24,011 bases of DNA from a virus. The stretch is from positions 1 through 24,011 of the IMG/VR virus record IMGVR_UViG_3300023179_000508. One strand, given 5' to 3'. A program made the translations under genes and the position numbers. Positions 9,224-20,362 of the stretch are shown in pieces. A model generated the notes under the pieces. The model saw only the letters and a program-made list of their open reading frames with translations. It was not told where the DNA came from and did not search any database. The first letter of the stretch is position 1; each line of letters begins with the position of its first letter.

Positions 9224-10561
9224 TCACTCCAAGTAGTCGTTGGCACTTTCAGATGCCTTTGACTGGTGTGAACGAAGGCGGTGTAAATACCGCTCTGTCG
9301 TCTTGATCGATTGATGTCCTAGTCGCTCTTTTACTTCATGGACATCTACGCCGTTCTTTAACAACTGCGTAGCGTTGGCATGTCGTAAATCGTGAGTTCT
9401 AGGAAACCAGCCGATTGCGGACTTGTCTATTGCTTTGTTCCAAGTTGTTCTCCATACATCACGAGGCATGTGGCTCATATTGTTGATGAAACTCCTTTGC
9501 TTATGCTTTTGCTGGTGCTTCTGCTTTGCCTTACGGCTTTGGCTTCTTACCTGCTCTGCTTCTGCTAGTGCTTCTGCTTGGGCTTTGGCTTTGCGGTAGT
9601 TTGCTACTGCTTGCCTACACCCTTCGCATCTACAACCCCCATGTGTATAGGAGTAAAGAGTTCCATGCTGGAACTGTTTTCCGCCTTTCTCGAATGGTCG
9701 AGAGGGCTTGGTGCTTCGTGAACCTTTAAGTTTACTATCCGTCAAGAGGATTGTTCTTGGAAACATGAGGTCATCTTTTGCTATGCCTTTTGCTAGGACA
9801 TACGCTTTTAATTGCTGTAATAGGGCTTTTCCTATTACTACGCTTCTCTTATGACCTGATTTTGTGGCATCTACTACCAAGAACCTAGTGCCATTGTTGT
9901 AATTGCTTCCAAGATCACTAACTCGTCTTTGAATAAATACTTCGCCAGTTTTGAAATTAATGTCTTTTGCTCTTACTTCCGTTGCTTCACCAAATCGACA
10001 CCCACTTGCTACTAGAAATTGGGCGAATAATTTAGTTCCTTGTGTCGGTAAATGCTTAATGATCTCCTTAAACTCATCAGGGGCTAGGAGATTAGAAATA
10101 TCGGCATGGTTGACCTTGATCTTAATTCCATGTGTCGGATTGCTCTCCAGTTGACCTGAACTAACTAACTTGGAAAACATAGAGCCAAGAGAAGCCTTCA
10201 CCTGATTTAAGGTGGCAGGTCTAACTCCCGATAGTTTTAGATCATCAATTAACTTAACTAGGTCTGAAGGCTTTAGAGAAGTTAGTTCTCGATCTCCGAT
10301 AACTGGAATTACAAACCTAGTTAAAACCGATTTATAGCCCTTCTTTGTAATCGGCATGAGATCAGACACCGCCAGCCATTGATCTATAAAATCAACCACC
10401 CTTAAATTAGCCTTTGAAGGGGGTTTTAAGCCATGTTTCTCGGCTTGTATGGCATGATACAAGGCTTCGGTTTCATTAGCCCATGTGCCAGCCGATAAAC
10501 GCCTATTTTGAAGCCTGTAATAGCCTGTAAATCTGCCGTTGCGCTTAATCACATACGCCAT
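9224..10561 (-). CDS. int: tyrosine recombinase (integrase) with a Cys-rich insertion
   Basis: It is a site-specific recombinase for integration of the element. The N-terminal arm-binding region (1-50) and SAM-like core-binding domain (about 55-145) precede a catalytic domain with R189 (GCRFGEA), K234 (TKSGHKR), H390-x2-R393 (HDLRH), H416 (LGHQ) and nucleophile Y425. All six residues are present, so it should be active. At 445 aa it is longer than typical because residues about 285-360 are inserted. This insertion is an HGTLYSYTHGGCRCEGC motif (H299, C310, C312, C315) followed by an Ala/Lys/Gln coil made of the local hexanucleotide repeat. An AGGGGGGA ribosome site lies just upstream of the ATG. 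Confidence 0.93.
   Translation of the reverse strand: MAYVIKRNGRFTGYYRLQNRRLSAGTWANETEALYHAIQAEKHGLKPPSKANLRVVDFIDQWLAVSDLMPITKKGYKSVLTRFVIPVIGDRELTSLKPSDLVKLIDDLKLSGVRPATLNQVKASLGSMFSKLVSSGQLESNPTHGIKIKVNHADISNLLAPDEFKEIIKHLPTQGTKLFAQFLVASGCRFGEATEVRAKDINFKTGEVFIQRRVSDLGSNYNNGTRFLVVDATKSGHKRSVVIGKALLQQLKAYVLAKGIAKDDLMFPRTILLTDSKLKGSRSTKPSRPFEKGGKQFQHGTLYSYTHGGCRCEGCRQAVANYRKAKAQAEALAEAEQVRSQSRKAKQKHQQKHKQRSFINNMSHMPRDVWRTTWNKAIDKSAIGWFPRTHDLRHANATQLLKNGVDVHEVKERLGHQSIKTTERYLHRLRSHQSKASESANDYLE
9487..9602. repeat. hexanucleotide tract inside the integrase insertion
   Basis: A run of TGCTTN/CTGCTA units, the longest of the four tracts, encodes residues 321-356 of the integrase (AKAQAEALAEAEQV and a KQKHQQKHKQ tail). 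Confidence 0.65.
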
Positions 10562-12787: not shown

Positions 12788-12984
12788 TGGTTTTCTCCTG
12801 TTGTAAATAATTCGTTTAACTGATCATATTTAGGCAATCCATTATTGTTTTGATGTCCAGTATCGCTACCGCAATCTACGCATTGACCCAATACTGGAAC
12901 TTCACAACCACATTCACAATTACACATAGGTTCAGTATCGAATGTTTCATCAAATAAACTTTCATCAAGTAAATCATCAAACAT
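12784..12984 (-). CDS. acidic Cys-rich zinc-ribbon-like peptide, 66 aa
   Basis: An acidic start (MFDDLLDESLFDETFD) precedes a cluster of six cysteines reading CNCECGC and then CVDCG, probably one or two zinc sites. Phages of actinobacteria often carry such knuckles. The very acidic N-terminus could mimic nucleic acid or bind a protein partner. It overlaps its neighbours by four and eight bases. Confidence 0.6.
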   Translation of the reverse strand: MFDDLLDESLFDETFDTEPMCNCECGCEVPVLGQCVDCGSDTGHQNNNGLPKYDQLNELFTTGENQ

Positions 12985-13135
12985 TTTTATTCTCCTTTAA
13001 TTGATTTAGATATTCAATTTCTACTTTTCTAATCTGTATTCTTGAAGTTCCAAACATACGAGCAACTTCGGCAAGAGATCGTTGGTATTCAAATCTTTGT
13101 TGAATTATTTTTTCTTTTTTATTCTTATTGAACAT
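12977..13135 (-). CDS. sigma-70 region-4-like HTH peptide, 52 aa
   Basis: After a lysine-rich start, the peptide reads RSLAEVARMFGTSRIQIRKVEIEYLNQL in two overlapping parts (SLAEVARMFGTSRIQIR; KVEIEYLNQL). This is the order and spacing of sigma region 4 (sLeeVA..fgvsreRIRqIe...L..L). No other sigma domain is present, so it may compete for the -35 element or for WhiB or core RNA polymerase. Its ribosome site GGAGT (plus-strand 13141-13145) can be masked by the RNA element just upstream. Confidence 0.6.
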   Translation of the reverse strand: MFNKNKKEKIIQQRFEYQRSLAEVARMFGTSRIQIRKVEIEYLNQLKENKNV

Positions 13136-13294
13136 TTATTACTCCGTTTCTACTAGGAGTTGAGTAGGCGCAGATACGGCTCGTTTTATTATCCAAAGCA
13201 ATTTAAGGACATAAAAGTCTTGACCGCCCTTCACAAGTGAAAGGAGTGGGGAATGAAAGAACCCCGACAAATCTTGTGTTAACGCCTACCCAAC
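13136..13294 (-). ncRNA. structured leader RNA with possible Shine-Dalgarno switch
   Basis: On the transcribed minus strand, GTTGGGTAGGCG (13294-13283) pairs with CGCCTACTCAAC (13170-13159) as 12 continuous pairs including one G-U. Inside are a GGGG/CCCC hairpin, a CCTTTCAC/GTGAAGGG hairpin (one G-U) and two weaker hairpins. Right after the closing helix, ACTCC can pair with the GGAGT ribosome site of the sigma-4-like gene. It shares two bases with the closing helix, so the two folds compete. It resembles a riboswitch or thermosensor layout. I recognise no known family. Confidence 0.55.
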
Positions 13295-13303
13295 AATTTT
13301 AAG

Positions 13304-13480
13304 TTATCGAGAGAGTGATCTCTTTTGTGCTTCTACGCAGTTATAGCAGAACCAAAGAATGTCCTGAGAATAATTATCGGTAATTGTTTTACCATTCTCT
13401 CTAACACCCTGTTGACCGCATTGATCACAATTATCTAATTCGTGATCTTTAACTCGTCTAACTATTTCTACATAACCCAT
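13304..13480 (-). CDS. zinc-finger-like small protein, 58 aa
   Basis: Two knuckles, CDQCG (about residue 18) and CYNCV (about 45), are 24 residues apart and likely hold one zinc ion. The sequence between them (TDNYSQDILWF) suggests a small beta-hairpin domain. The ATG directly follows the upstream TAA and has AGGGGG ten bases before it. No family is recognised. Confidence 0.6.
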   Translation of the reverse strand: MGYVEIVRRVKDHELDNCDQCGQQGVRENGKTITDNYSQDILWFCYNCVEAQKRSLSR

Positions 13481-15468: not shown

Positions 15469-17349
15469 TTAGGCGTTAACTAATCGCCGACTAATCGCAT
15501 ACTTAACGATTGATTTAGCCATGCCAATTAAGTTAAGGGGATTATTTACAACCGCACCAATTTCGCAATAGTGCGATTTTTCTTGATCAAGTTTTACTAA
15601 CTCATCTTGATCAGCAATATAAGCAAAAGCAGTTAATACGCCAGCATTACCTAGTTTTTTAATTGCTTCGTTATTTTCTTTAACGGAATGGTGTTCCCAC
15701 TCGCCGTCAGTAATAGCAAAGAAAATACGAACTGGCTTTTCAGTTTCAGCAAGTATTTTAGTTGCGTAATTAATTGCTTCTGTTGGATTAGTTCCACCAG
15801 TAGAGCCAGCATTACGAATTACACCAGTTGCTTTTTCATCAGCACGATACAAAATGTTTGTATGCGTATTGAATGTAATTACTGTGGTGTTTGCGTTAAT
15901 GCGATCTAATGCTCTTTTAATCGCATACATAGCCCGATAAGCAGAAGTTTCTTTACTGCCACTCATTGAACCTGAATTGTCTAAAAGAATTACGCACTCG
16001 ATCTCTGTGGCATCATCTTGACCTTCTGACCATTGATCAAAGATCGTATCTAAATCATCACCACGCATATATCTATGCGCCTGTAAGCGACCCTGAGATT
16101 GATATTTATTCCAAGCAGGGTCAAAGGTTGCTTTTAATCTTTCTAACTCTCTACTGAAAGATAGAGATGCTTGGAAAGTTTTAGCATCAGGAGTTTGATT
16201 ATGATACCGAGATTTTTGTGGCTCTTTAGAATTATTGGTAGCAAGAGAAGGTAAGCCACCAATCTGTCTAATGATGTCGTTAATCTCGTTAGCAATCTGT
16301 TGATTATCTAATATGTCGTTTAACATATTTTTTAATGCAGATTGATTATCAGGAGTTTGATTACCAGCAGTTTTACCATTACCAGTATCTTTATTTTGAT
16401 CTGTTAAATCAATTTCAATTACTGGTTGTGATTTTAATTGTTCTGCCAATTTAACATCATCTTTAATAGGTTTTGTTTTAGCCCTATCACGATCACGCTT
16501 TTGTTGAATTGGTGGAACTGGGCGAGATGTTGATGAACTCTCTATACCTTCATGCGGTCTATCACCATGACCGAATGGAGATTTAATTGCTACAACAACT
16601 TTCTTGCCGTCTTTGCCAAGTAAATCTTTTTCCCAATTCGCTAATCCGTCTTGTGAAACTTCTTGTTTTGGCATTAACGCATCAAATCTTTTGATTAAAT
16701 CTTTTGCTAATTCAGTATCGTTTGGAAAAACTAATAATCGATACTGGTCAACTATGTCGCAGATTTCATCTAATTGATCTTGATGTTTATATGCGTTGCG
16801 TGATCGTGCCAACAATTCAGTTGGTAAGTATTGCCGACCACGCAATAATGCATAAGAAGTTTCAAACGCTTGTGGGTCATCAACAAAGTGAATAAGAATT
16901 GTTGATGTGAACCAATCAATCGTTGAGGGATAACGAGTTGTAAATAGAGTTTCAATTCGCTGATCATCTAACGCATTGTAAGCAAATAAATAATCATTAT
17001 CTCTACACCATTCAAAGATTTCAGAACCTTCTCTTGGTGTATAAAGAATGTGGCTAACTTCGTGTAAATCAAGTCCACGCAATCCAGCAATTTCTTTTGC
17101 TGTATTTAAGTTGCCAAGTAATCGAGAGTTAAAACAAACATGATTAGCACCTGACCAAGCAGGTGCATTTATATCTGCATGTTCCACTTTAACTTCAACC
17201 TTGCGAAGTGTTAATGCGGAATTAACTCTGCCAAAGAACTGGGAAAATCTTTCAATTCTTTGGCGTTTAATTTCCGCTTCTTGTTTCTCCTTATTTTTTA
17301 GATCAGATTGGGTTAGAGCCGTATCTAAATCTAAGAATGGATATTCCAT
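15469..17349 (-). CDS. VWA-domain protein with HEVSH motif, partner of the MoxR ATPase (CobT-like)
   Basis: The 626-aa protein has an N-terminal region with H96-E-V-S-H100 and a downstream acidic stretch (ALDDQRIE, 126-133), as in zincin-like metal sites. A low-complexity linker spans about 260-390. The C-terminal von Willebrand A domain has a complete MIDAS: DNSGS (457-461), T520 in GGTNP and D548 in TDGE. VWA/MoxR pairs remodel or load metal into partner proteins; the CobS/CobT cobaltochelatase subunits belong to this class. Phage copies are often called CobT-like, but no CobN is seen here. The gene lies 14 bases after the ATPase gene. Confidence 0.85.
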   Translation of the reverse strand: MEYPFLDLDTALTQSDLKNKEKQEAEIKRQRIERFSQFFGRVNSALTLRKVEVKVEHADINAPAWSGANHVCFNSRLLGNLNTAKEIAGLRGLDLHEVSHILYTPREGSEIFEWCRDNDYLFAYNALDDQRIETLFTTRYPSTIDWFTSTILIHFVDDPQAFETSYALLRGRQYLPTELLARSRNAYKHQDQLDEICDIVDQYRLLVFPNDTELAKDLIKRFDALMPKQEVSQDGLANWEKDLLGKDGKKVVVAIKSPFGHGDRPHEGIESSSTSRPVPPIQQKRDRDRAKTKPIKDDVKLAEQLKSQPVIEIDLTDQNKDTGNGKTAGNQTPDNQSALKNMLNDILDNQQIANEINDIIRQIGGLPSLATNNSKEPQKSRYHNQTPDAKTFQASLSFSRELERLKATFDPAWNKYQSQGRLQAHRYMRGDDLDTIFDQWSEGQDDATEIECVILLDNSGSMSGSKETSAYRAMYAIKRALDRINANTTVITFNTHTNILYRADEKATGVIRNAGSTGGTNPTEAINYATKILAETEKPVRIFFAITDGEWEHHSVKENNEAIKKLGNAGVLTAFAYIADQDELVKLDQEKSHYCEIGAVVNNPLNLIGMAKSIVKYAISRRLVNA

Positions 17350-17363
17350 TTATTTATTCCTAA

Positions 17364-18230
17364 CTAAGCGTTAACTGGTTCAAGTAATCCAAGATCGGAT
17401 TTGATGTTGTATTCGCTACCTTCTAGCAACATACGAACTGCTGGCTTCTCATCATCAGCAAAGTTATTAACGAACACTTCACTAGCAAACTCATAAGAAA
17501 GACCCTTAGCAAGTTTCTCGAATGTTTTTAGGATACGAGTTGATACTGGAGTTTCAAATATAGTTGATGAATTAGAAGCATCACTAACACGAAGCGTTGA
17601 TCTCATGCCATTAGCAAGTTCCAATAATGAACCTGAATTAATAATTTGTTTTTCAATCTTTGTGTCGTAGTGATAAGTCAACTTAATTGCGAAGCGATCT
17701 TTCCATGCTTCATTAAGTAATTGAGTTCCACGATAGTTAGGGTTCATATCTGCAACCACTAATAGATCAGGGTGAGCATGTATAACTTCGTTATCGTGGC
17801 TCATTAAAGTAATTGATCGGCGATCATCTAACAAACTCATTAGATATTGTGAAAGATTTTTTGGTGCATTATTTAATTCGTTAATTAATAACACGCCACC
17901 TTCACGAACGATCTTTGTAATTGCGCCGTCAATCCATTTTAGTTCGCCCTTGTTATCAGGAAACAAACCGCCAGTTAGTTGTGTGAAATCAAGTGCATTA
18001 TTTGAAGGAACTGCAAAGAAGTTCATTTTGCGTTTTGATGCGTAAGCCATAGCGGAAGTTGTTTTACCAGTTCCAGCATCACCTTCAATTAATACATTCA
18101 TTTTGTTTTCAAGTGCATAGTCATACATTTGAGTTTCGGTAATACCGCCACCAAAAGAGCGTTCAATGTAATGCCCAGTTTGTTCCAGCGAAGGAACAAA
18201 GAAGGATTTGTTAGTTGTTTCTGTATTCAT
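17364..18230 (-). CDS. MoxR/CobS-type AAA+ ATPase
   Basis: It is an ATP-driven chaperone of the MoxR clade. Walker A is GDAGTGKT (50-57) and Walker B is GVLLINELN (112-120), with Asn-Glu instead of Asp-Glu. Sensor 1 lies around N163 (DMNPNYRGT) and an arginine finger is at R179 (WKDRF). At 288 aa it is one AAA+ module without accessory domains. It is followed directly by the VWA gene, the usual pairing, so the two probably form one complex. Its client is unknown. A 235-base leader with a long-range inverted repeat precedes it. Confidence 0.9.
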   Translation of the reverse strand: MNTETTNKSFFVPSLEQTGHYIERSFGGGITETQMYDYALENKMNVLIEGDAGTGKTTSAMAYASKRKMNFFAVPSNNALDFTQLTGGLFPDNKGELKWIDGAITKIVREGGVLLINELNNAPKNLSQYLMSLLDDRRSITLMSHDNEVIHAHPDLLVVADMNPNYRGTQLLNEAWKDRFAIKLTYHYDTKIEKQIINSGSLLELANGMRSTLRVSDASNSSTIFETPVSTRILKTFEKLAKGLSYEFASEVFVNNFADDEKPAVRMLLEGSEYNIKSDLGLLEPVNA

Positions 18231-18933: not shown

Positions 18934-19684
18934 TATTTATTCCTTGTATTGGTTAGGGGGGGAAGGAATTAATAGATCGATATTAAGTTGTTATTAAGTT
19001 GTATTGAATACATTTATTTATGTATTCACCGCTATTACTGGCAAAGATAATTCGCAGATTATTTATCACCAGTAATAGCAGAAAACACATAAGCCATTCT
19101 CTAATTACTAGATAACTAATTTCATTGTGCTTAGATCAGATTGATTACTGTCGGCATCTCACTAGTAGAGAACAATCCATAGTTAGTTATTTTTTATTTC
19201 CAAGAATAGTTGCCTAAACTTAATCTCTATTCACAATTAATTTCTTAATCGTTGATCTGATGTTTTGTAGAACGCTCGTAATTTATTAGTGAAATAAATT
19301 AGTTATCGCCACTCCAAGTGATCTCATCAGATTTAATTACTAATTAGTTAGTTCAAAGTTGCTACACGCAAACTGTTTTTAATTGAACGGCAATAACTAA
19401 TTGCCATAACTAATCGTTTAATCGAGATGTTTTAGTCCGTATGTAGTTTTTAAGGTTCGAGTTCTCTGATTAACTTCTCAAATTAAGAGGCGATCTGATG
19501 ACCTATTAATTAATCGGAACTGTCCAAGCGTAGCACAAAATCCAGTTGACCTTGACCACCTGATAAGAGCGAGTTCCAGCGTGGGGGTGTCCGATTTGCC
19601 CGATTGAGCCTGAGCCTGAGCGTGGGGGCTAACTGGCGAACTGGGGGCTGTGGAACTAACTCCAACTTTCGGAGTAGTGCTGGC

Positions 19685-19776
19685 GAGTTAGTTGCGGACT
19701 AACTCATGGTGGCGGAAGCGGTGGCGGTGGGGAGTTAGTTGCGAACTAACTTTTATGTAGCCCGTAAAAGTTAGTT
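19685..19776. repeat. cluster of AGTTAGTT/AACTAACT hairpins
   Basis: GAGTTAGT-TGCGG-ACTAACTC (19685-19705), AGTTAGTT-GCG-AACTAACT (19733-19751) and a perfect 12-bp repeat with arms AACTAACTTTTA and TAAAAGTTAGTT (19744-19776, nine-base loop). The second and third share an arm, so they are mutually exclusive folds. The same words recur at 8515 and 10712-10786. Confidence 0.6.
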
Positions 19777-19896
19777 GGTTAAATGTGTGCGCTTTGTGGG
19801 AGATGTTTAGTTAATTAGTTATGTGGGAAATTGCGCCGAAGTATTTTTTTCTCAGTAATAACTAAATAGATATATAAGAGAGATAGATAGATAGAT

Positions 19897-19969
19897 ACAT
19901 GTTCCATGTCTAATAAGTAGTTAATAGTTATGTGATGCCAAGAGATATTAATTAATACATGGAACATGT
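19897..19969. repeat. pair of inverted ACATG-N3-CATGT dyads
   Basis: ACATGTTCCATGT (19897) and ACATGGAACATGT (19957) are exact reverse complements 47 bases apart. Each is itself a palindrome around TTC or GAA. They are likely binding sites for a dimeric repressor. Confidence 0.55.
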
Positions 19970-20168
19970 GGCTATGTAGTAATGCGTATGCGTTTGATCA
20001 TGTGAGTTATTACAAGGAGATAAGGCACTAATGATGTGATGATGTAATGATCTGATAACAACTCGGAGAGTTGGCTAATAGGCTGGTGGTGGTCGTATAA
20101 GCAAATTGTTGCCGTAGTCAGTAGCCAAACGCTAATTAGTTATGCCGTCATCAAATAGTCATCAAGCC

Positions 20169-20193
20169 ATGTGGAACACATAGTTATTGAGCG
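20169..20193. promoter_or_regulatory. ATGTG-GAA-CACAT dyad plus TAGTTATTGAGCG, shared with the integrase upstream region
   Basis: The dyad is followed at once by a 13-base word. Both parts, GTGGAACAC and TAGTTATTGAGCG, recur in the same order at 10721-10751, nearly 10 kb away. This suggests one protein acting at both places. Confidence 0.55.
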
Positions 20194-20195
20194 CA

Positions 20196-20242
20196 TGTTA
20201 ACAAGATCGCACCTGATTAATAGTCAGGTGTAATTGTTAACA
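20196..20242. repeat. nested palindrome TGTTAAC...CACCTGA...TCAGGTG...GTTAACA
   Basis: Two concentric 7-bp inverted repeats surround TTAATAG. A similar CACCTG-TTA-CAGGTG dyad occurs inside the small gene at 20586-20735. It is a candidate operator or replication hairpin. Confidence 0.5.
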
Positions 20243-20347
20243 CTAATAAATTACCAAGACCCCCCCACCATTAAGCGTGAGCGCACAGAGGACCCCCCAG
20301 GTCAGAGACATGGTTGAAGGGTTTGGGCCTAAGCAGTAGCCAAGGAG

Positions 20348-20356
20348 TGGGATAAT
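20348..20356 (+). promoter_or_regulatory. extended -10 promoter for the rightward block
   Basis: TGGGATAAT matches an extended -10 element (TGn plus GATAAT). Its expected start point falls on or beside the ATG at 20363, which would give a leaderless transcript, common in actinobacteria. No good -35 is seen at the right distance. Confidence 0.45.
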
Positions 20357-20362
20357 AGGGGT

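Follow-up and report, generated by a model that had tools for sequence, protein, structure and literature searches.

The 24,011-base virus record IMGVR_UViG_3300023179_000508 of IMG/VR, analyzed here over its whole length and called the window, carries between two small open reading frames (ORFs) a stretch that a preliminary description had read as a structured RNA with a possible switch at the ribosome site of the downstream gene. Both flanking genes have minus as their coding strand, as does the RNA described below (Table 1). Only 9 nt separate the stop codon of the upstream ORF from the start of the closing helix, P1, and no sigma-70-like promoter was found near the element. A 54- to 60-aa cysteine-rich protein (MGYVEIV..NCDQC..WFCFNC) is encoded directly upstream of the RNA in many freshwater relatives and had no match in Pfam or PHROG. 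The downstream gene had been called sigma-4-like, and its product does match sigma-70 region 4.

Table 1. Positions of the RNA, its parts, and the neighboring genes in the window
Feature	Positions	Strand	Remarks
Upstream ORF	13304..13480	minus	58 aa, cysteine-rich
Element	13294..13159	minus	136 nt, three-way junction
P1, 5' strand, GUUGGGUAGGCG	13283..13294	minus	pairs with 13159..13170
J1/2, UUAA (consensus UYAA)	13279..13282	minus	T and both As invariant among 55 aligned sequences
P2, 5' strand, CACAAG	13273..13278	minus	covariation
L2	13238..13272	minus	size very variable among members
GGGG/CCCC hairpin in L2	13265..13262 with 13251..13248	minus	lineage-specific
Pyrimidine stretch in L2, ACUCCUUUC	13247..13239	minus	
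P2, 3' strand, CUUGUG	13232..13237	minus	covariation
J2/3, A	13231	minus	invariant column
P3, 5' strand, AGGGCGGU	13223..13230	minus	100% of cells paired, 55 sequences
Internal loop, 5' side, CAAGAC (consensus CANGAY)	13217..13222	minus	near-invariant across members
P3b hairpin, UUUUAU with AUAAAA	13184..13216	minus	apical part variable
Internal loop, 3' side, CGA	13181..13183	minus	alternates with UA
P3, 3' strand, GCCGU, bulged A13175, UCU	13172..13180	minus	covariation, folding
G closing P1	13171	minus	invariant; pairs with U13282
P1, 3' strand, CGCCUACUCAAC	13159..13170	minus	partner of 13283..13294
GGAGU, likely Shine-Dalgarno sequence of the downstream ORF	13141..13145	minus	ATG at 13135, 5 nt further
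Downstream ORF	12977..13135	minus	52 aa, sigma-70 region-4-like (PF04545, E = 3.7e-7)

The element was more stable than all of 200 dinucleotide-shuffled sequences (z = -3.41). Its plus strand was similarly stable (z = -3.58), and folding energy alone therefore cannot choose the strand. We searched for homologues in IMG/VR by way of the neighboring pyrimidine-dimer glycosylase, which yielded 80 loci; the intergenic element was strongly conserved among close relatives. Scanning with a core pattern retrieved 61 stretches and a relaxed pattern retrieved 73; with a first covariance model (R1), members of greater divergence emerged from the fetched loci, including a clade with a different P3 sequence. 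When genome contigs were scanned, the first pattern, which was too narrow, gave no match, and the relaxed one gave five: four actinobacterial records and one Bacteroidetes genome (21.6 bits), the latter probably a chance match. After filtering, we were left with 82 distinct homologous sequences from IMG/VR contigs and a few actinobacterial genomes; their 56 representatives are not phylogenetically independent of one another. A second covariance model (R2) had matches in 7 of the 395 genomes searched from the actinobacterial class, and at least one of these matches, lying in coding-looking sequence, may be due to chance. A composite blastn search of isolated phages returned nothing significant, and R2 found no match in 12 phage records, mostly actinophages, that included the isolated relative DSL-LC01, the reductase of which is 76% identical. 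The carriers are phages of actinobacteria and related integrated elements.

Alignment of these sequences showed that the helices are maintained by compensatory change. Among 31 sequences, 94.8% of the cells in P1, P2, and P3 were paired and 16 of 21 pairs had changed on both sides; none of 500 shuffles did as well. With 55 sequences, 92.8% of the cells were paired, two-sided cells numbered 397 compared to 121.8 in shuffled alignments, and the covariation score was 0.76, compared to 0.24 after shuffling and at most 0.16 when partners were slid, so that compensatory changes exceed both controls, as is required of a structured noncoding RNA. The retrieval patterns fix parts of P3 but leave free P1 beyond its first base, P2, and the fourth pair of P3, and it is in these free parts that covariation was also found. 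Across the family, the shape has been preserved while the sequence has changed almost everywhere. We regard it as nearly certain that the RNA class is real. The covariation, together with conserved G.U and U.G pairs in P3 that exist only in the minus-strand RNA, identifies minus as the strand, in agreement with the preliminary description. Homologues lacking compensatory changes in the helix arms would have counted against that description; such changes are present. A protein-coding explanation was rejected, since no frame is open through most members, as was stop-codon readthrough, since the downstream frames are mostly closed.

The RNA is a three-way junction of P1, P2, and P3, in which P3 continues through an internal loop into a hairpin, P3b; members range in size from about 85 to 145 nt. 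The 12-bp closing helix that had been proposed was recovered as P1, including one G.U pair possible only in the minus-strand RNA. In the window, a U.G pair between the U of J1/2 and the invariant G lengthens it to 13 bp, and several small members also have this pair when folded to minimum energy. Nine of the 10 inner P1 pairs show two-sided changes among the 55 sequences, and the remaining one is an invariant G-C pair; the boundary of the helix is sharp, with 73% pairing at pair 12 but 21% at the next, pair 13. All four scored P2 pairs and four of the eight P3 pairs change on both sides in the same alignment. P3 alternates between AAGG/ACCUG and AAGA/AUCUG, and its extension to 8 bp with a bulged A was made after inspection (AAGA occurs with AUCUG, and ACCUG only with AAGG). 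The first three pairs of P3b covary and are 75.8% paired even in a rough alignment. The unpaired core, which is invariant or nearly so, consists of UYAA, the single A of J2/3, the bulged A, and CANGA opposite (U or G)A. Compared with a kink-turn, in which a 3-nt bulge is followed by tandem G.A and A.G pairs, CAN-GA opposite GA fits in one subset of members only; UA replaces GA in the other subset, and the G is absent from two members.

Folding of individual members without guidance agrees with this structure. The minimum-energy folds of two of them (L103 and L185) give the conserved fold, and those of five others (L144, L148, L099, L168, and L153) match it in most details. In the window, the conserved fold (-41.8 kcal/mol) lies within 0.3 kcal/mol of the minimum (-42.1). 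The inner hairpin formed by CCUUUCAC and GUGAAGGG in the preliminary description can indeed form there and is isoenergetic, but it is not the inner fold that has been conserved, which consists of P2 and P3 instead, and we rejected it in that role. Because the conserved fold and an alternative are equal in energy, the predicted folds leave two-state behavior of the window RNA possible.

The switch that had been proposed pairs ACTCC (13160..13156) with the GGAGT of the ribosome site (13145..13141). Positions and complementarity are as described, members of the clade of the window do carry an ORF, ribosome site included, about 25 nt past the element, and the two motifs are fully complementary, counting G.U, in 8 of 14 close relatives. 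However, none of the five pairs shows a two-sided change among the 14, and one of the five, the C-G pair, is broken in 6 of these relatives (GGACT or GGATT). P1, moreover, is too long and stable for a typical switching helix. A riboswitch would further be expected to precede, as a 5' leader, the same gene or pathway throughout, whereas the genes that follow this RNA in different phages are unrelated (WhiB, scaffold, tape measure, and unrelated small genes as well as the sigma-4-like gene) or are replaced by a terminator. We conclude that the RNA does not serve the sigma-4-like gene as a dedicated riboswitch and consider a translational switch of the downstream gene through ACTCC and GGAGT quite improbable; with a mask that does not covary and unrelated genes downstream, this model was rejected.

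The genomic context shows that the RNA is tied to no single gene. Besides those just named, its neighbors include genes for an HNH endonuclease, a minor head protein, and small unknown proteins, and in some records the neighbor is a terminator convergent with a ribonucleotide reductase (RNR) gene. The orientation of the RNA follows the operon. A stop codon lies 0 to 15 nt upstream in 57% of the representatives, compared to 6.8% of random positions, and about 18 of 66 members have a strong hairpin or terminator that starts 0 to 6 nt beyond P1. The 3' end of the RNA usually abuts either a terminator or the next ribosome site. In half of the members an ORF follows directly, its ribosome site lying about 25 nt away, so that an effect in cis on translation is possible. 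In one clade (L039, L047, L059, L087, L066, and L105), a second conserved stretch, TGGTAGAGATCATYRACACCTAGCAGACTACGGCAGACTGA, lies between the RNA and the next gene. Two actinobacterial genomes (L193 and L194) have similar pairs of small uncharacterized genes immediately before the RNA, which suggests a shared integrated element.

Exactly one match per record was found in 21 of 21 large contigs and in 25 of 25 further records (46 viral records of 10 to 141 kb), although at least one of these (L142/G436) is so weak a match that chance may account for it. One copy was likewise present in the window record and in each of the four host genomes searched; a match in L181/G440 is doubtful. A single copy at a variable position would also suit a packaging or replication signal, or another signal acting at the level of DNA, that is transcribed by chance. 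This explanation is highly improbable, in that the conserved G.U and U.G pairs belong to one strand, the element is oriented with its operon, and its unpaired nucleotides have the character of an RNA core.

We then compared the RNA with known families. None of the 4,227 families of Rfam 15 matched the element in the window or 29 member loci at the gathering threshold, the only matches in those loci being tRNAs elsewhere, and three members scanned with permissive settings had matches no better than chance; the preliminary description had likewise recognized no riboswitch class. The closest approach was to the azaaromatic (yjdF) riboswitch, RF01764, to which one member (L148) could be aligned weakly over the full length (20.6 bits, E = 0.12; gathering score, 45). 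That alignment depends on L2 and is out of register with the conserved core, and RF01764 gave nothing over its cutoff when run against 30 member records; homology to the yjdF riboswitch was rejected as a single weak chance alignment. No description of such a motif was found in the literature searched, which left out preprints and most subscription papers. The RNA belongs to none of the RNA families tested, even as a variant, and in its broad kind is an orphan structured RNA.

Several known RNAs share individual traits with it. The 6C RNA of actinobacteria has two C6 hairpins, and there are other small RNAs whose C- and U-rich loops bind Shine-Dalgarno sequences. The actinobacterial setting and the exposed pyrimidine-rich loops, which could pair with ribosome sites, are similar here, but the loops are of the CCUUUC type on a conserved three-way junction, and 6C had no match in the Rfam scans. 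The pRNA of phi29, a packaging RNA, resembles it in having one copy per phage genome and a three-way junction but differs in sequence, host group, and genomic context and has no Rfam match to it. GOLLD and ROOL are large structured RNAs, several hundred nucleotides long, that were found by comparative genomics and are often encoded by phages. Like them, the RNA described here is highly structured and conserved and is carried by phages or prophages; unlike them, it measures about 85 to 145 nt, has a single three-way junction, and has no Rfam match. Both are named in PMC12286853.

Its occurrence as a single copy, its indifference to neighbors, its location in operons, and its ends clamped by a helix are best read as those of a noncoding RNA that acts by itself, and we lean slightly toward a kind of structured noncoding RNA not catalogued before, which actinobacterial phages and related integrated elements carry and which acts on its own. 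Such an RNA would be made within the operon transcript, starting just after a stop codon; its ends would be held by a helix of mostly 12 bp, and processing or an adjacent terminator would free it to act in trans or independently of context. In one mode of action, the conserved junction and internal loop might be offered to a protein (or ligand). In the alternative mode, pyrimidine loops such as CCUUUC, which resembles the complement of ribosome sites in the anti-Shine-Dalgarno tail of 16S rRNA, might be offered to the ribosome-binding sites of other mRNAs. An anti-Shine-Dalgarno-like motif of this kind occurs in one of two loops in 47 of 56 members, compared to 23.6 in shuffled sequences, and is absent in the other 9; 7 of 1,000 permutations of the anti-Shine-Dalgarno string score as well, and kinship among the sequences inflates the result. 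The loop sequences suggest, short of proof, that CCUUUC loops may pair with Shine-Dalgarno sequences of mRNAs. Two more specific models were rejected. Mimicry of 16S rRNA (GGGCGGU and GUAGCCGUACC) fails in that P3 covaries away from both in other clades, and a required pseudoknot between CCUU of L2 and AAGG fails in that many members lack CCUU and its presence is not linked to the change from AAGG to AAGA.

The placement between genes and before terminators would also be explained by a new small self-cleaving ribozyme that cuts polycistronic phage mRNA, with the junction core as its putative catalytic site. The junction is compact and has about 10 invariant unpaired or junction nucleotides, and its one copy per record stands just after a stop codon irrespective of the gene. 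On the other hand, P1, at 12 bp and sharply bounded, is longer than would be expected in a small ribozyme, no known ribozyme was matched in Rfam, and the members inspected included no circular permutations, P1 always being the open end, in searches whose pattern fixed only the P3 side. Circular permutation is common among self-cleaving ribozymes, though not obligatory. We consider a ribozyme unlikely. Another alternative is a module acting in cis on mRNA stability or processing, e.g., one that stops 5'-3' or 3'-5' exonucleases and thereby shields the cistron before or after it. The constant place after a stop codon in most members and before a terminator in others, the irrelevance of gene identity, and a long, stable P1 would all suit such a module. 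Repeats within a genome would be conceivable for it, however, yet each record has one copy, and simple hairpins would suffice without a conserved internal loop and a bulged A, so this explanation, too, has little probability in our judgment. It is a speculative idea, and one more apt to be wrong than right, that the RNA brings a biochemical activity new to phages, either as a new class of self-cleaving ribozyme or as a single-copy scaffold RNA with which actinophages of many lineages would capture a ribosome, RNase, or polymerase of the host.

Actinobacteria are the dominant group in many fresh waters and soils, and to our knowledge few structured RNAs encoded by phages are known. That a single-copy RNA has been kept in GC-poor and GC-rich phages, whether in an early, a head, or a tail operon, points to a common, as yet unnamed, requirement of infection. 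Integrated members in named actinobacterial strains, among them the culturable Haloechinothrix aidingensis YIM 98757 and Actinosynnema sp. ALI-1.44 as well as a Nesterenkonia and a strain recorded as Rhodococcus rhodnii, would allow its action to be tested without an uncultured phage.

Three further features of the window were observed apart from the RNA. About 1.4 kb between divergent gene blocks (18934..20360) is without convincing ORFs and has recurring CAATAACTA and TTAGTTATTG motifs in direct and inverted orientation, possibly marking a regulatory or replication region. A tyrosine-integrase-like protein is encoded at 9224..10561 (minus strand); its residues ~295 to 351, with GCRCxGCR cysteines, match HNH/HTH profiles of PHROG, as if a small zinc domain had been inserted in the middle. 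Finally, a VWA-domain protein is encoded beside an AAA ATPase at 15469..18230 (minus strand), a pair that is CobS/CobT- or MoxR-like.
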